DNA of 64,000 nt, from the NCBI RefSeq assembly GCF_002082565.1, contig NZ_CP020562.1, positions 3,410,001-3,474,000 on the forward strand. The letters are read 5' to 3'. Source of the stretch: Halomonas sp. GT (lineage in GTDB: Bacteria > Pseudomonadota > Gammaproteobacteria > Pseudomonadales > Halomonadaceae). A program made the position numbers and the translations under genes. This document shows, one piece after another, positions 5,242-29,967 of the stretch (the first letter of the stretch is position 1; each line of letters begins with the position of its first letter). The notes beneath the pieces were generated by a model. The model was not told where the DNA came from. It did not search any database and was given only the letters and a program-made list of their open reading frames with translations.

Positions 5242-5835
5242 ATGTCAGCGCGTATTGCCACGGTAAGCCGTGACACCAACGAAACGCAGATTACGGTCAG
5301 CGTCAACCTTGACGGTGAAGGCCGTCTCCGCAGCGACACCGGCGTTCCGTTTCTTGATCATATGCTTGATCAAGTGGCTCGTCATGGGATGGTGGATCTC
5401 GATATTGACGCAAAAGGCGACCTACACATCGATGATCACCACACGGTCGAAGATCTAGGCATTACCCTGGGCCAAGCGTTTCACCAAGCGATCGGCGATA
5501 AACGCGGCATCTACCGCTACGGGCATGCCTACGTTCCTCTTGATGAAGCGCTGTCCCGTGTGGTTATCGACTTTTCCGGCCGTCCAGGTCTTTATATGAA
5601 TGTCGACTTTACCCGCGATACCATTGGCCGTATGGATACCCAGCTGTTTTGGGAGTTTTTCCAAGGTTTTGTCAATCATGCGCGCGTCACCCTGCATATT
5701 GACAATGTAAAAGGCTTTAATGCTCATCATCAGGCTGAGACTATATTTAAAGCGTTTGGCCGCGCGCTGCGCATGGCGGTGGCAGAAGACCCTCGTATGG
5801 CGGGACAAATGCCGTCTACCAAAGGAAGCCTATAA
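5242..5835 (+). CDS. hisB: Imidazoleglycerol-phosphate dehydratase
   Basis: HisB converts imidazole-glycerol phosphate to imidazole-acetol phosphate, step 6 of histidine synthesis. The 197-residue protein is the monofunctional form, without the N-terminal phosphatase domain of enterobacterial HisB. Both metal-binding repeats are visible: [10 protein letters not shown] near residue 66 and [13 protein letters not shown] near residue 165, which bind the two Mn ions. The start at 5242 is preceded by AGGAG at 5230. The longer open frame upstream lacks an RBS and matches no family. It heads the hisB-H-A-F run. Confidence 0.97.
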
Positions 5836-5887
5836 TGCCGAGTATTGCATCAAGTGGTAGCTCGCCAACGATAACAAGGAGCGCTTT

Positions 5888-6529
5888 ATGACCATCGCAG
5901 TAATCGATTATGGAATGGGCAACCTGCACTCTGTGGCAAAAGCGCTTGAGCATGTTACCCACGAAAATGTGATTATTACCCGCGACCCTCGGCGTATTTT
6001 AGGTGCTACGCGCCTAGTACTCCCGGGCCAGGGGGCTATTCGGGACTGTGTAGGCGAGCTGGAACGTACCGAGCTGCGCGGTTTAGTCGATGACATCCTT
6101 ACTCGTCAAGCGAAACCACTATTGGGTATTTGCGTGGGCCAGCAAATGCTGATGGAGCGTAGCGAAGAGAACGGTGGCGTAGATTGCCTGGGCTTTTTCC
6201 ATGGCAGCGTCGATCGCTTTCCGGCCAATATGCGTGATGATTATGAACAGCGCTTAAAAGTCCCTCACATGGGCTGGAATCTTGTGGCGCAACATCACGA
6301 TCACCCGTTATGGTCTGGCATTGACGATAACGAACACTTCTATTTTGTGCACAGCTACTACGTCAATGCGGCTGACGATGCTCAAGTATTTGGTACTACC
6401 CAGTACGGCAAAGTATGCGCCCATGTAGCGATTGGCCGTGATGCCACCTTCGCTGTGCAGTTCCATCCTGAAAAAAGCTCCCGCGCGGGCCTTCGCCTGC
6501 TTGAAAACTTTGTCACCTGGACGCCCTGA
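5888..6529 (+). CDS. hisH: Imidazole glycerol phosphate synthase, glutaminase subunit
   Basis: HisH releases ammonia from glutamine and channels it to HisF. The 213-residue class I amidotransferase keeps the triad: the nucleophile Cys in [11 protein letters not shown] (about residue 83) and His-Glu in [10 protein letters not shown] near residue 194. AAGGAG precedes the ATG. It follows hisB by 52 bp and precedes hisA by 11 bp, so one transcript is likely. Confidence 0.97.
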
Positions 6530-22434: not shown

Positions 22435-23669
<1,235 letters not shown>

Positions 23670-24557
23670 ATGGATTTTCGCTTATTAAAGCATGTGGTAA
23701 CGCTGGCTGAGACGCTGCACTTTGGCCGCGCCAGCGAGCTTTGTCATATCAGCCCATCCACCTTAAGCCGCTCAATTCAGCAGGTTGAAGCCGAGCTTGG
23801 AACGCAACTATTTGAGCGCGATAATCGCCATGTCACGCTAACCCCTCAGGGCTTAGCGTTTCAGCACTATGCAAAAGAGACCTTAGAACAGTGGGAAATG
23901 CAGAAGCGAACGCTGGCCGCCACGGCGTCACAGCTAAGCGGCGAAATAAGCATCTACTGTTCGGTAACCGCCAGCTATAGCTTTCTCTACGAACTACTGA
24001 GTGATGTACGCACCTGCCATCCTGGCATCGAATTAAAGCTCCATACCGGTGACCCCGCTGACGCCATGTCACGGGTACTAGAAGGCGCAGATGATATAGC
24101 CATTACCCCCCGCCCGCGGATTCCACCCAACGCCCTGGCCTTTAAATCGCTTACCCGCTCGCCGCTACTGTTTATTGCACCTACAGAAGCTCACGACTGG
24201 CTCCCAAGTCAGCCGGAAAGCTCAACGGCCATGCAGTGGCGTGATGTCCCGATGATCCTTTCAGAGGCTGGTCTTTCAAGGGAGTACGCCAATACCTGGT
24301 TTAAAGCGATGGGGATAACGCCGCGTATTTATGCCCAAGTGGCCGGGCACGAAGCGATTGTAAGTATGGTGGGACTGGGGTTTGGCGTAGGCGTAGTACC
24401 CAAAATCGTGTTAGATAACAGCCCGCTGGCCGAACGCGTGCAAGTGCTCAACGTTAAACCCGAACTCCCCCACTACGATGTCGGGCTTTGCGTGCTTAAC
24501 CGACGGCTCAAAAACCCGATGATTGACGCCTTTTGGGCTACCGTGACGCCGCGTTAA
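23670..24557 (+). CDS. ilvY: LysR-type regulator IlvY
   Basis: The 295-residue LysR protein has an N-terminal winged helix-turn-helix (LAETLHFGRASELCHISPST then LSRSIQQVEAELG, residues 12-44) and a periplasmic-binding-fold effector domain. Close likeness to IlvY is seen in ISPSTLSRSIQ, LSGEISIYCSVTASYSFL, TGDPADAM and GHEAIVSMVGLGFGVGVVP. Divergence from ilvC supports the role: acetolactate-responsive activation of ilvC and self-repression. Confidence 0.92.
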   Translation: MDFRLLKHVVTLAETLHFGRASELCHISPSTLSRSIQQVEAELGTQLFERDNRHVTLTPQGLAFQHYAKETLEQWEMQKRTLAATASQLSGEISIYCSVTASYSFLYELLSDVRTCHPGIELKLHTGDPADAMSRVLEGADDIAITPRPRIPPNALAFKSLTRSPLLFIAPTEAHDWLPSQPESSTAMQWRDVPMILSEAGLSREYANTWFKAMGITPRIYAQVAGHEAIVSMVGLGFGVGVVPKIVLDNSPLAERVQVLNVKPELPHYDVGLCVLNRRLKNPMIDAFWATVTPR

Positions 24558-24649: not shown

Positions 24650-25141
24650 TTACAACGACAGGACTTTATCGCCTCGGGCGATACCGGACACCCCAGTACG
24701 CGCCACCTCTAGAATGCCTACTGGCGCCATGGCCTGCAGAAATGCATCTAGCTTGGAGGCGTCACCAGTAATCTGAACGGTATAAAGGCTTGGCGTTACG
24801 TCGACGATCTGCGCCCGGAAAATATCCACTGTACGCTTCACTTCATCGCGGGCTGCGCCTAGCGCTTTTACTTTCACCAGCATTAGTTCACGTTCAATGT
24901 GGTTACCTTCCGTCAGGTCGACCAACTTCACCACATCAATCAGTTTATTAAGATGCTTAGTGATTTGCTCAATCACCCGGTCATCACCTACGGTAGTCAC
25001 CGTCAGGCGTGATAGCGACGGATCCTCAGTCGGTGCAACGTTCAGCGTTTCAATGTTGAAGTTACGCTGGGAGAACAGCCCGACCACACGTGACAGCGCA
25101 CCCGGTTCGTTTTCCATCAGAATCGAGATGATATGACGCAT
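24650..25141 (-). CDS. ilvH: Acetolactate synthase small (regulatory) subunit
   Basis: The 163-residue protein has the N-terminal ACT domain (MRHIISILMENEPGALSRVV, valine-binding in the family) and the C-terminal ACT-like domain, ending in ARTGVSGIARGDKVL. It stimulates the catalytic subunit and gives valine feedback inhibition. The length equals that of E. coli IlvH. Its ATG overlaps the ilvI stop by one base (TGATG), ensuring coupled synthesis. Confidence 0.96.
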   Translation of the reverse strand: MRHIISILMENEPGALSRVVGLFSQRNFNIETLNVAPTEDPSLSRLTVTTVGDDRVIEQITKHLNKLIDVVKLVDLTEGNHIERELMLVKVKALGAARDEVKRTVDIFRAQIVDVTPSLYTVQITGDASKLDAFLQAMAPVGILEVARTGVSGIARGDKVLSL

Positions 25142-26865
25142 CAGGTACGCTCCGTTTTAGACAGCAGCATGTCACGCATGGCACCCAACGGCACCTGCAT
25201 CGGATAGACGTGCTCAAAGGGATCAACCTTCACATCCAGGAATACCAGCTCATGCTTGTTGGCAAAAGCGCGCTCTAGTGCAGGCTCCAACTCATCAAGG
25301 GTATTCACGGTGATCGCGGTAAATCCGTAAGCCTCAATTAGCATGTGGAAGTCTGGCAGCGACTCCATATAGGAGTGCGCATGGCGGGATTTGTAGTTCA
25401 AATCCTGCCACTGCCGCACCATGCCAAGCGATGCATTGTTGAGGTTTACAATTTTGACGCCCACGCCATACTGCTTACAGGTAGAGAGTTCCTGCATCAT
25501 CATCTGGAAGCTGCCTTCCCCTGTTACACACACGACATCGTCATCAGGGAAGTTCTGTTTGATCCCCATGGCGGCCGGGAAGCCAAAGCCCATGGTGCCC
25601 AAACCACCTGAGGTGATCAGACGGTTAGGCTTATCAAACTTGTAGTACTGAGCAGCAAACATCTGGTGCTGTCCAACATCCGTCGTCACGTAGGCTTCAC
25701 CGCGAGTAACACGGCATAGCGCTTCGATAACTTCCTGTGGCTTCAACACTTCGCCTGGCTTAGAAGGCTCATATAGCTTGCCTTCACGCTCGGCACGCCA
25801 GCCGTCAATCTTTTGCCACCACTCGGTTAGCGCTTCAGGCTGCGAAATTGACTGGCCTTGAACCAAGCTAATCATCTCATTAATGACGCTAGATGCTGGC
25901 CCAACAATAGGTACATCCGCACGCACAGTTTTAGAGACCGAACTTGGGTCCACATCCACGTGAATGATTTTTGCCGTGGGGCAGAACTTCGACGTGTTGT
26001 TGGTTACCCGGTCATCAAAACGCGCGCCAATGGCGATAATCAAATCCGCATGGTGCATGGCCATATTGGATTCATACGAGCCGTGCATTCCTAACCAGCC
26101 CAGACACTGCCGGTCACTTTGCGGATAGGAGCCGATCCCCATCAACGTTGTGGTAATGGGGAAGCCGAGCTGTTTGACCAAATCGGTCAATCCTTCGCTT
26201 GCCTTGCCAGTTACCACGCCACCGCCGGTATAGAACACCGGGCGTTTGGCTTTCAGCATCATCTCAACGGCTTTTTTAATTTGACCCGTATGGCCCCGGG
26301 TAACCGGGTTATAGGAGCGCATCTTGACCTTTTTCGGGTAGACGTACTCATAGCGCTCGGTCGGTGCCGTCATATCTTTAGGAATATCGACGACTACCGG
26401 CCCTGGGCGGCCAGTCGCCGCGAGATAGAAGGCCTTTTTCAGCACTTCTGGAATCTCAGACGGATGCCGAATTGAGAAGCTGTGCTTCACGATGGGGCGA
26501 GTCACACCCACAATATCGGTTTCTTGGAAGGCATCGTCACCAATCAGGTGGCTCATTACCTGACCGCACAGCACGACCATAGGAATCGAATCCATATAGG
26601 CAGTCGCAATGCCGGTAACCGCATTGGTAGCACCAGGACCCGAGGTGACAAGCACCACACCTGGCTTACCCGCTGCACGAGCATAGCCATCGGCTGCGTG
26701 AGTCGCTGCCTGTTCGTGACGCACAAGAATGTGCTTCACCTTGTCCTGGCGGAACAGCGCATCATAAATATGCAGCGCCGCGCCGCCGGGATAACCATAA
26801 ATGTATTCAACGCCCTCATCTTGCAAGAAGCGGGCGATCATATCTGCGCCGGAAAGCAGTTCCAC
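25141..26865 (-). CDS. ilvI: Acetolactate synthase large (catalytic) subunit
   Basis: The ThDP enzyme condenses pyruvate to acetolactate or acetohydroxybutyrate, first step of Val/Leu/Ile synthesis. It has the N-terminal ThDP domain with catalytic Glu in LVRHEQAATHAADGYARA near 48, a central FAD-binding domain (IGARFDDRVT) and the C-terminal pyrophosphate motif GEGSFQMMMQELST...NN. I start it at GTG 26865: AGGGGAG lies seven bases upstream and the product is 574 residues, the IlvI length. An in-frame ATG at 26967 would add 34 residues unlike the family and run through the structured leader. Confidence 0.96.
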   Translation of the reverse strand: MELLSGADMIARFLQDEGVEYIYGYPGGAALHIYDALFRQDKVKHILVRHEQAATHAADGYARAAGKPGVVLVTSGPGATNAVTGIATAYMDSIPMVVLCGQVMSHLIGDDAFQETDIVGVTRPIVKHSFSIRHPSEIPEVLKKAFYLAATGRPGPVVVDIPKDMTAPTERYEYVYPKKVKMRSYNPVTRGHTGQIKKAVEMMLKAKRPVFYTGGGVVTGKASEGLTDLVKQLGFPITTTLMGIGSYPQSDRQCLGWLGMHGSYESNMAMHHADLIIAIGARFDDRVTNNTSKFCPTAKIIHVDVDPSSVSKTVRADVPIVGPASSVINEMISLVQGQSISQPEALTEWWQKIDGWRAEREGKLYEPSKPGEVLKPQEVIEALCRVTRGEAYVTTDVGQHQMFAAQYYKFDKPNRLITSGGLGTMGFGFPAAMGIKQNFPDDDVVCVTGEGSFQMMMQELSTCKQYGVGVKIVNLNNASLGMVRQWQDLNYKSRHAHSYMESLPDFHMLIEAYGFTAITVNTLDELEPALERAFANKHELVFLDVKVDPFEHVYPMQVPLGAMRDMLLSKTERT

Positions 26866-27190
26866 TGTGTTTCTCCCCTGGAGGTCTCGAGTGCGATCCG
26901 CAGGACATCCTGCGGTGTCGAGTGCGACGGTATGCCGCTGCCGGCCCATGCCGGCACCTGATGCCAAACCCTGGCATATGGCCCGGTTAGGGCCTGCACT
27001 CTCATCGGAAGCACCGACATATCATGAAATATGCCAGTAGCTCCCTTACACGACGGTTTGCCGTGTCGGGGCGTTGGCCAGGTCGGGCGGTTAGCCCAAG
27101 CCCGGAAGTCCTTCGGCGGGTAAAGGCTTTCGCCTACCCTTCGCGCGGGGATTAGGGGTTGCCCGTTGGTTCCGCGCCCGCAAATCAGGA
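26866..27190 (-). ncRNA. Long structured 5' leader of ilvIH, candidate cis-regulatory RNA
   Basis: Between the candidate promoter and the ilvI GTG lie about 325 bases packed with local hairpins on the minus strand. These are 27143-27177 (outer GCGCGG/CCGCGC), 27118-27139 (GAAA tetraloop), 27016-27035, 26980-26994 (GGCCC/GGGCC), 26961-26977 (ATGCCA/TGGCAT), 26939-26956 (TGCCGGC/GCCGGCA) and 26898-26915 (CCGCAGGA/TCCTGCGG). The last is bracketed by two copies of TCGAGTGCGA. There is no U-run terminator and no clear Leu/Val/Ile leader peptide. Structured ilvB-leader RNAs have been reported in marine gammaproteobacteria; whether this is one cannot be decided here. Confidence 0.6.
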
Positions 27191-27197
27191 ACCCACA

Positions 27198-27226
27198 AGA
27201 TTCCATTAGCGCCCTCAGCCTGTCAA
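27198..27226 (-). promoter_or_regulatory. Candidate promoter of ilvIH
   Basis: On the minus strand a perfect -35 TTGACA is 17 bp from a weak -10 GAATCT, between the clpB terminator and the structured leader. The weak -10 would fit a regulated promoter, but the call depends mainly on the -35. Confidence 0.45.
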
Positions 27227-27269
27227 CCTCCGATCAGGACAAACGCAACAAACGTCGCAGTAAGTCATT

Positions 27270-27304
27270 AAAAAAGCCCCGCTAGCAGAGCTAACGAGGC
27301 TTTT
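27270..27304 (-). terminator. Terminator of clpB
   Basis: An AAAAGCCNCGNTAGC/GCTANCGNGGCTTTT stem with loop AGA, ending in T residues on the minus strand, lies 84 bp past the clpB stop. The stem contains two G-T type positions. Confidence 0.85.
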
Positions 27305-27387
27305 GCCCTATTTCATTGCGCAGGCTTGCTGAGGTTCATTGCGCAGGCTTGTTGAGGACGTGGGGATTTTAATTGCCCACGCGTAAA

Positions 27388-29967
27388 TTACTCAAATACC
27401 AGCTTGCCTTCACTCGCGCTGATATGAATGGTGTCGCCAGGGGCATATTTGCCCGCCAGCAAATCTTGAGCCAGTGGGTTCTCGATGCGGCTTTGGATCG
27501 CCCGCTTCAGCGGCCTTGCGCCATACACCGGATCGAAACCGACCACTGCCAGCTGGGCCATAGCGTCGTCGCTAATTTCCAGGCTCAAGTCATGCTCAGC
27601 TAAGCGAACTTTCAAACGCTCGAGCTGAATACCGGCAATTGCCTGAATTTGCTCTTGGCCAAGAGCGTGGAACACCACCACCTCATCAATGCGGTTAATC
27701 AATTCCGGGCGGAAATGGTTACCCACTACTTCCATCACTGCACTTTTCATTACTTCGTAGTCGTTATCATCTCCACCCATGCGCTGGATAATGTCCGAGC
27801 CCATGTTAGAGGTCATCACGATCACCGTATTACGGAAATCGACTGTACGACCTTGCCCATCAGTTAAGCGTCCATCCTCTAGCACTTGCAACAGGATATT
27901 GAACACATCCGGATGCGCTTTTTCCACTTCGTCCAGCAACAGAACCGAGTAGGGCTTACGACGCACCGCTTCAGTTAAGTAACCACCCTCTTCATAACCC
28001 ACATAGCCTGGGGGCGCACCAATCAAGCGAGCCACAGAGTGCTTCTCCATGAACTCCGACATATCGATACGCACCATTGCTTCTTCAGTATCAAACAAGA
28101 AGTTAGCCAGCGACTTACATAGCTCCGTTTTACCCACCCCGGTCGGGCCGAGGAACAGGAACGAACCGTTGGGTCGATTAGGATCAGATAGCCCAGCACG
28201 CGAGCGGCGCACAGCGTTAGCTACGGCCTCTACCGCTTCATGCTGGCCAATCACCCGCTCATGCAGCGCTTCTTCCATGCGCAGTAGTTTATCTCGCTCG
28301 CCTTCCAACATCTTGGAGACGGGGATACCGGTCCAACGGGAAACCACCTCAGCAATCTCTTCTTCGGTAACGTTTGAGCGCAGCAACTGGTGACTGGCAG
28401 TATCTGCCTCACCCTCACCCGCTTCGCTGATTTTCTTCTCCAACGCCGGGATCTTGCCATACTGAATCTCTGACATACGGCCTAGATCGCCCTGGCGACG
28501 AGCCTGCTCCAGGTCAATGCGCGCCTGTTCCAACTCCGCTTTAAACTGAGCTGCGCCTTGAATACTGGCTTTTTCGGCTTTCCAGATTTCATCCAAATCA
28601 GCGTATTCACGCTCTAATTCGTGGATCTGGTTGTTCAGTGCCTCAAGGCGTTTCTTAGTAGCCTCGTCGGTCTCTTTCTTAAGCGCTTCGCGCTCCATTT
28701 TCAGCTGAATTAGGCGACGATCCAGCCTATCCATCTCTTCAGGCTTAGAGTCCAGTTCCATGCGGATACGGGACGCTGCCTCGTCGATCAGATCAATTGC
28801 TTTATCGGGCAACTGCCTATCAGTGATATAGCGGGTAGAGAGCTTCGCCGCCGCAATGATCGCTGAATCGGTAATATCCACGCCATGGTGGACTTCGTAA
28901 CGCTCTTTTAAGCCGCGCAGAATAGCTACCGTATCCTCTTCGGAGGGCTCATCGACCAACACCTTCTGGAAACGGCGCTCCAGCGCGGCATCTTTTTCAA
29001 TGTATTTACGGTACTCATCCAGCGTGGTCGCCCCTACGCAGTGCAGTTCGCCACGCGCCAGCGCAGGCTTAAGCATGTTGCCTGCATCCATCGCGCCTTC
29101 AGCTTTACCTGCGCCCACCATGGTGTGCAGCTCATCAATAAACAGGATGACTCGGCCTTCTTCCTGGGAAAGCTCTTTAAGCACCGCTTTCAGGCGCTCT
29201 TCAAATTCTCCGCGGAACTTAGCACCCGCCAGCAGGGAGCCCATGTCCAAGGAAAGGACGCGTTTCTCTTTCAGGCCTTCGGGCACTTCACCGTTTACAA
29301 TACGCTGAGCCAACCCTTCAACAATGGCAGTTTTACCCACCCCTGGCTCCCCGATCAGTACCGGGTTATTTTTGGTACGACGCTGCAGCACCTGAATCGT
29401 GCGGCGAATTTCATCATCACGCCCAATCACGGGGTCCAACTTGCCGTCTAAGGCACGCTGGGTTAGATCCATGGTGTATTTATTAAGTGCTTCACGCTGG
29501 TCTTCGGCATTTGGGTCGTCGACCTTAGCACCACCGCGCAGACTATTGATTGCGGCTTCCAGGGCTTTCCGGTTGAGCCCTGCCTCTTTCATCAGCTTGG
29601 TGATCGCACTGTTCATTTCCAATGCAGCCAGAAGTACCAATTCACTCGCAATGAACTGGTCGCCACGCTTCTGCGCTTCCCGGTCAGTTAAATTGAATAG
29701 CTTAATGAAGTCGCGAGATGGCTGAACATCACCATCGAACTGGCTTACTTTAGGTAAGTCATCTAATTGCTTCTGCAAACCGTCGCGCAGGCGCGAGCTG
29801 CTGCCCCCGGCTTTTTCAACTAGAGCTTTGATGCCAGTGTCTTTGGTATCGAGTAATGCTAGCAATAAGTGCGCGGGATCAAGCTGATTATGGCCGTGCC
29901 CAACCGCAAGGGATTGTGCCTCAGAAATAGCGGCCTGTAATTTGGCAGTAAATTTATCGAATCGCAT
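27388..29967 (-). CDS. clpB: ClpB disaggregase
   Basis: ClpB is a hexameric AAA+ chaperone that pulls proteins out of aggregates with DnaK. The 859-residue protein has the double Clp N-domain (about 1-145), AAA1 with Walker A GEPGVGKT near 206, the coiled-coil M-domain (about 400-525, Glu/Lys/Arg-rich) and AAA2 with Walker A GPTGVGKT near 605 and the small C-terminal domain. The ATG is preceded by AGGAGG. I could not find a clean sigma-32 promoter upstream. It carries its own terminator. Confidence 0.97.

Follow-up and report, generated by a model that had tools for sequence, protein, structure and literature searches.

Acetolactate synthase of Halomonas sp. GT is encoded by ilvI (large subunit) and ilvH (small subunit), which lie on the minus strand of the window analysed here, a stretch of 64,000 nucleotides from contig NZ_CP020562.1. 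The ilvI gene (25141-26865, GTG start) matches the NCBIfam profile NF005058.0 with 1041.8 bits against a cut-off of 951, and ilvH (24650-25141), which adjoins it downstream, is over the cut-off of TIGR00119.1. The gene upstream, clpB (27388-29967), lies on the same strand and is over the cut-off of NF008118.0. Between clpB and ilvI there is a minus-strand leader of about 326-332 nt, and the question raised by this locus is how such a leader might control the genes behind it. The original prediction described a structured RNA without an attenuator that could act on translation or bind a ligand, and the analysis leads to much the same reading: the leader is structured, has no attenuator, and plausibly acts in one of these two ways. 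With a probability of about 60%, it is a conserved cis-acting structured leader of the ilvIH mRNA, most likely a translational riboswitch-like element with its own promoter, in Halomonadaceae.

Four matches to biosynthetic acetolactate synthase were found in the genome and one of them, ilvI, is over the TIGR00118 cut-off; both LeuA-like matches in the genome are below the cut-off. The NCBIfam profile names of the nearby genes are ClpB, IlvI, IlvH, IlvC and IlvY. The gene of the IlvY-type regulator (23670-24557, plus strand) is divergent from ilvC (22435-23451, minus strand) and sits between ilvC and ilvIH, an arrangement that recalls the ilvY-ilvC pair of E. coli.

A candidate promoter precedes the leader. 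It consists of a -35 element TTGACA (27221-27226, minus strand) and a -10-like element GAATCT (27198-27203), separated by a 17-nt spacer, and transcription is predicted to start at about position 27191. Among 30 alignment rows the aligned -10 forms were GAATCT, GACTCT, GAACCT and GAGTCT, and the length of the spacer differs across the alignment. The distance to the ilvI GTG is 332 nt from the end of the -10 element and 355 nt from TTGACA, so that the figure of about 325 bases given originally for the distance from promoter to GTG fits the transcribed part. In the core set of 127 fetched loci, a GGTTGACA-like box (one mismatch allowed) precedes TTCCTGA in 126, with 320-394 nt between the box and the start codon. 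The ilvI start codon is GTG in 127/127 of these loci, and GGGGAGA occurs within 20 nt of it in all 127. The exception to the box, L100 (G204:C84:5733-6856), carries an insertion of about 190 nt between the two domains of the leader, positions 1-169 of the query being found at 6187-6356 and positions 206-361 at 5833-5994. Four terminator-like sites were found at the Halomonas sp. GT locus, two before the promoter, two inside ilvI and none in the leader; a terminator-like hairpin with a T-run (27292-27275) follows clpB and lies 5' of the promoter.

The leader was searched for by blastn and by two separately built covariance models, R1 for its 3' domain and R2 for its 5' domain. By blastn, it matched 37 of 58 genomes, comprising all 37 of the genus (its own included) and none of the 21 from other families of the order, and identity was 76-97% in all 36 other genomes sampled from the genus. 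Within Halomonadaceae, blastn matches were obtained in 169 of 201 genomes and 17 of 24 genera, and R1 matches (E ≤ 0.1) in 188 of 201 genomes and 21 of 24 genera. In an order-wide sample R1 matched 19 of 390 genomes, namely 18 in Halomonadaceae and G544, and in a class sample R2 matched three of 369 genomes, all in Halomonadaceae; because both of these large scans filtered strictly and evaluated a small number of candidates in each genome, the lack of matches outside the family carries little weight. The match in G544 (L144, E 0.003), which is outside Halomonadaceae, has no ilvI and was taken as chance. When 34 loci (L142-L175), many of which are weak matches, were checked, 33 were found directly upstream of ilvI, and ilvI adjoins 45/45 loci when L144 is left out and 12 R2 loci are added. 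R2 also matched 18 of 20 difficult Halomonadaceae genomes at E ≤ 1; 14 of these 18 have an R1 match as well, and the two matches are always within 45 nt of each other. Three genera have no R1 match at E ≤ 0.1, namely g45 (R2 E 4e-4), g38 (R1 E 0.02) and g39. The 3' end of the element is visible by eye in L313 and L316 (g45 and g38), and none was seen in L331 (g39). A 21-mer from the P9 region (see below) matched at least 119 stretches, the best 80 of which all belong to Halomonas, Vreelandella, Billgrantia, Onishia, Aidingimonas, Modicisalibacter, Litchfieldella, Cobetia or Halovibrio.

The predicted fold is more stable than those of shuffled sequences: the minimum free energy of a 351-nt stretch around the leader was -160.2 kcal/mol compared with -136.3 ± 5.5 kcal/mol for 100 dinucleotide shuffles (z = -4.33), and none of the 100 shuffles was as low. 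Ten local hairpins are present in this fold, where at least seven had been claimed. Two domains can be modelled in the leader: helices P2-P5 make up the 5' domain, and P8-P12 make up the 3' domain, which helix P7 closes. Near the 5' end of the RNA, a CCUGA motif (27185-27189) has a possible long-range partner, UCAGG (26961-26957). Of the 162 non-duplicate leaders, 159 contain the two motifs, and the three exceptions, all of genus g26, carry neither; as both are invariant, they give no covariation evidence for their pairing.

The 5' domain begins with P2 and its inner hairpin P2a (27143-27177). P2 (27177-27172 with 27148-27143) is paired in 100% of alignment cells with both-side changes at four of six pairs, whereas P2a (27165-27162 with 27156-27153, loop CAACC), which is partly paired in this genome, is paired in 81% of cells with both-side changes at two of four pairs. 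P3 (27118-27139; 8 pairs, 100% paired, 4 both-side changes) is the helix with a bulge and a GAAA tetraloop described originally; in this genome it has the GAAA loop, and its two-nt bulge is at 27124-27123. P4/P4b (27078-27105, loop UAACC; 10 pairs, 94.6% paired, 7 both-side changes) contains the top co-substituting pair, 27096-27086, and is followed by P5 (27049-27065, loop AAACC; 6 pairs, 99.1% paired, 2 both-side changes). Between the domains lies P6 (27006-27047), an optional, variable hairpin insert that is present or absent among relatives.

The 3' domain contains P8 (26980-26994, loop UAACC; 98.6% paired, both-side changes at 2/5 pairs), P9 (26962-26976, UGCCA-GGGUU-UGGCA; 90.0% paired, no pair with both-side changes), a three-way element (26918-26961) and P12. 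The three-way element is composed of closing pairs (26961-26956 with 26923-26918; 98.3% paired, both-side changes at 0/5 pairs), P10 (26955-26940; 96.0%, 4/6) and P11 (26938-26924, loop AUACC; 100%, 2/5). P12 (26898-26915) varies in sequence, is paired in 89.1% of cells and has both-side changes at all six pairs. This hairpin had been described as a perfect 8-bp helix; the palindrome CCGCAGGA-UG-UCCUGCGG (26915-26898) is indeed there, but the RNA hairpin formed from it has 7 bp and a loop of 4 nt. Related pentaloops occur on the minus strand at 27161-27157 (CAACC), 27093-27089 (UAACC), 27059-27055 (AAACC), 26989-26985 (UAACC) and 26933-26929 (AUACC), and across Halomonadaceae the pattern is largely kept in five leader hairpins.

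Compensating changes were counted in two alignments. Alignment A1 covers the 3' domain (59 sequences, 58 distinct; 7 helices, 38 pairs), in which 95.9% of cells pair compared with 89.1% after shuffling and 26-38% when the structure was slid, and 14 pairs have both-side changes compared with 8.8 shuffled and 5-8 slid. The corresponding values for the 5' domain (alignment A3; 58 sequences, 5 helices, 34 pairs) are 96.0% of cells compared with 92.0% shuffled and 35-49% slid, and 19 pairs compared with 8.2 shuffled and 3-8 slid; here, as in the branch count below, the structure is somewhat favoured over its slid versions because it was derived from the same sequences. Since shuffles ignore relatedness, the branches on which both partners of a pair change were also counted on a tree of 126 leaders (72 pairs). 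There were 73 such co-changes against 21.0 ± 4.0 under independent placement, a number reached in none of 2000 simulations, and a standard pair was kept in 54 of the 73 compared with 3-6 when the structure was slid. When pairs were scanned by mutual information (G-test) against two simulated phylogenetic nulls, none reached significance (the lowest E was about 0.9), so support for the fold rests on the pair counts and the branch test, the latter having been picked after the scan had failed. In our reading, the mutual-information measure is weakened here by deep clades. Covariation among relatives, which the original prediction had named as its test, was thus found by the pair counts and the branch test and was not significant in the mutual-information scan. 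With the same reservation about that scan, the leader has what is looked for in a riboswitch, a conserved fold with compensating changes before a biosynthetic gene.

The region before the start codon contains the elements through which translation might be controlled. The 5' strand of P7, GAGUGC (26996-27001), pairs with the 3' strand GCACUC (26889-26894), which ends nine nt before the Shine-Dalgarno (SD) sequence AGGGGAGA (26872-26879), the site of the conserved GGGGAGA. The tract GAGACCUCC (26880-26888) between them is, from local folding, a possible anti-SD strand, and its AGACCU (26887-26882) is a possible pseudoknot strand. P7 is invariant in the 58 distinct rows of alignment A1, which means that the core alignment gives no covariation evidence for it. 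The two P7 strands are found as exact motifs in 146 of the 162 non-duplicate leaders. In genus g29 (L163 and L164) the strands can be read by eye as GUCGC and GCGAU, a compensating change, and P7 is ambiguous in part of genus g36. In two similar leaders, L073 and L076, the strand GAGUGC is replaced by AAGUUC and the closing helix is weakened or decayed.

P12 had also been described as bracketed by two copies of TCGAGTGCGA. Both copies are present here on the plus strand (26887-26896 and 26918-26927), but the repeat is not family-wide: the upstream copy (copy 1) has its GCACTC in place in 117 of the 162 leaders, whereas the other copy, close to the SD, forms the 3' strand of P7. A switch in which the two copies compete for GAGUGC was not adopted, since several genera lack copy 1 and yet retain P7.

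When 166 tails were folded locally, the GUG of ilvI was paired with the P7 strand (probability 0.5 or higher) in 75 of them, or in 17 of 55 once identical tails were counted a single time; after one shuffle of the tract the number was 21 of 166. Pairing between the SD and the tract was seen in 61 of the 166 tails. When 40 leaders were folded whole, the SD had a mean unpaired probability of 0.39 and was not clearly masked. The local pairing of the start region suggests an off state that would compete with P7. It may also be suggested that the P9 loop GGGUUU pairs with the AGACCU tract as a pseudoknot. Loop variants in other genera make this pairing attractive: AGGUCU is found in g29, GGGUCU in g31 and AGGUC in g37, while g36 has AGGUCU in one part and AGGUC in the rest. 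The AGACCU tail is absent from the sequences read of g23, g24, g25, g26 and g43, and the pseudoknot was significant in no single sequence (p 0.10-0.88).

On these grounds the following mechanism is proposed. The ilvIH leader would be made from its own promoter and would control ilvI in cis at translation initiation. With P7 closed, GAGUGC being paired with the GCACUC nearer the SD, the latter strand would be held off the start region; with P7 open, the CAC of its 3' strand could pair with GUG and the C-rich tract with the SD. The balance would be tipped by an indicator of how well the cell is supplied with branched-chain amino acids, in the simplest case a small molecule. Should the ligand-bound fold include P7, translation would be switched on by binding, and this would fit a starvation or precursor signal; binding that opens P7 would fit end-product repression. 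A stronger form of this proposal is that the leader, about 330 nt long, represents a new class of riboswitch in which a branched-chain amino acid or pathway intermediate is sensed directly and translation of ilvIH is gated across all Halomonadaceae, and that a sister family has a distant relative of it; this is put forward tentatively, as a possibility to which we give less than even odds.

Many branched-chain operons are under attenuation or tRNA-sensing control, which makes leader-peptide attenuation or T-box-type tRNA sensing a natural rival. The original prediction had noted neither a U-run attenuator nor an obvious leader peptide, and both statements held. The longest T-run in this leader is 3, and runs do not exceed 4 in 152 of 162 non-duplicate leaders. 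Three start-like codons are conserved inside the leader, but the frames that follow them come in 31, 23 and 26 different lengths (in 124, 126 and 125 leaders) with branched-chain fractions of 0.18, 0.17 and 0.19, and an SD-like sequence precedes these codons in 0/124, 4/126 and 0/125 cases, respectively. A fourth, in the -10 region, opens frames of 22 lengths with a branched-chain fraction of 0.18 and is preceded by an SD-like sequence in 50 of 120 leaders. Neither a conserved upstream open reading frame (uORF) nor a run of branched-chain codons was found among 126 core leaders. Leader-peptide attenuation was rejected on these grounds and for want of a terminator within the leader. The ilvB-OMG RNA has been suggested to work in this way (PMC10272879), but variable frames of low branched-chain content, the lack of a U-run and the lack of a T-box or other credible Rfam match make attenuation or tRNA sensing very improbable for the Halomonadaceae leader. 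The region could also be conserved as DNA for the binding of a regulator, its hairpins being incidental; in E. coli, Lrp regulates ilvIH by acting on the DNA. Changes that compensate one another so that pairs are preserved, a P12 that varies while its pairing is kept and an optional inserted hairpin are features of RNA, and given the covariation result this explanation is unlikely and is rated the least probable of all.

The main rival of the riboswitch-like reading is a leader bound by a protein, either a regulator or acetolactate synthase itself, in which the pentaloop hairpins would be repeated sites and binding would decide the access of ribosomes to the SD. Protein binding to long leaders with many hairpins is well established, and the related pentaloops in five hairpins keep this rival alive: an NNAYC loop occurs in P2a (57/58), P4b (51/58) and P11 (54/59) and an NNNCC loop in P5 (49/58) and P8 (47/59). 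The loops are nevertheless looser than one motif, since NNAYC is found in P5 in 22/58 and in P8 in 38/59 and NNNCC in P2a in 31/58, and the conserved junction and long-range motifs suggest a single compact fold; protein binding is regarded as unlikely. Improbable, too, is a constitutive leader that does not switch and serves to stabilise the mRNA, to insulate translation or as the source of a small RNA. Such a leader would agree with an alternative conformation that is only predicted, with the invariance of P7 in the core alignment and with an SD that is not clearly masked in whole-leader folds. On the other side, the length and intricacy of the leader and its fixed place before the sole acetolactate synthase gene over the cut-off seem to go beyond the needs of stability, and the SD and start codon can be masked locally in part of the tails.

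The Rfam covariance-model search that had been proposed for this region was run, and no credible match of the leader was found in Rfam 15. At gathering scores there was no match, and at E values up to 10 there were seven sub-threshold matches. Five of these lie near the clpB terminator (His_leader, Phe_leader, togavirus frameshift element, Spot_42 and L10_leader) and two are on the opposite strand (P33 and Pseudomon-groES). The weak matches at 27261-27400 (minus strand), around the clpB terminator, are far below gathering scores and are artefacts. Ten diverged leader loci gave no Rfam match at E ≤ 1. A literature search for a Halomonas ilvI riboswitch or an acetolactate synthase leader or untranslated region, with most subscription papers outside its scope, found nothing. 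The leader RNA is therefore neither matched by Rfam 15 nor found described in the literature searched.

Several known leaders invite comparison. T-box leaders sense amino acid supply before biosynthetic genes, and the Halomonadaceae leader had no match in Rfam searches, in which a T-box model was presumably included. The ppGpp riboswitch likewise precedes branched-chain genes, but its class, which is presumably included in Rfam and shorter than the Halomonadaceae leader, gave no match to it either. It is described as a ligand-responsive leader before branched-chain biosynthesis genes (PMC8632094; PMC11109978, for Firmicutes). The ilvB-II motif of Corynebacterium ilvBNC was first taken as a riboswitch candidate upstream of ilvB and acts via a uORF (PMC11109978; PMC10272879), whereas the Halomonadaceae leader has no such frame. 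A study of 26 genomes reported an ilvD motif (Veillonella) and an ilvB motif (Leptospira, 7 representatives) as weak riboswitch candidates upstream of branched-chain genes, of one lineage each (PMC8632094); these belong to other bacteria, and the Halomonadaceae leader was detected in 188 of 201 genomes. The ilvB-OMG RNA is similar in that a conserved RNA structure precedes the gene for the large subunit of acetolactate synthase. A start codon with an in-frame stop is reported in all but two of its 41 representatives, the encoded peptides are rich in branched-chain residues and threonine, and control of the leader-peptide type has been proposed (PMC10272879). Going by that published description, the Halomonadaceae leader differs in having no conserved uORF. 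The earlier suggestion that it might be a member of the ilvB leaders of marine gammaproteobacteria is at odds with this difference and gained nothing from the Rfam searches, in so far as Rfam 15 includes ilvB-OMG; membership of ilvB-OMG is not supported.

As a candidate regulatory RNA, the leader is large, is well conserved and has a clear target gene, ilvI, and its anatomy and covariance statistics make it directly testable. To our knowledge, no natural riboswitch has been shown to bind a branched-chain amino acid, and direct sensing of valine, leucine, isoleucine or a precursor, if true, would fill this gap. If the leader is bound by a protein instead, it would be a pointer to the control of acetolactate synthase in Halomonadaceae, on which the literature searched held nothing. 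The salt-loving bacteria of the Halomonas family are of interest for industrial production (PMC3227634).

Sequences upstream of ilvI were also read in a sister family, f20, and in family f7. In f20, an IlvI match at the set limit was found in 59 of 61 genomes. Thirty of its ilvI loci (L318 and L335-L363) were read, and these have another leader, preceded by a promoter of its own with a TATTGACA-like box at a distance of 313-406 nt from ilvI. The motifs CCTGA (20/30), GGCAAYCCC (16/30), CCTCAGGAG (15/30) and CACTC near the SD (15/30) are shared in part of these loci. R2 run with filters off on eight loci, four of them from f20, gave nothing below E 0.18, and the two best matches were unconvincing. 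An RNAalifold structure from 18 of the 30 loci had 17 pairs with both-side changes compared with 14-19 when slid, which is no excess, and an Rfam search of 10 loci from f20 and f7 gave no match. Homology of the f20 leader was not accepted, since motifs alone are shared and neither R2 nor covariation was supportive; the two leaders may be distantly related or may have arisen in parallel. In f7 (L319 and L364) the region upstream of ilvI is for the most part unlike the Halomonas leader, and contains a promoter-like box TATTGACT followed by a similar GGGCAACCCC/AGGCAATCCC hairpin.
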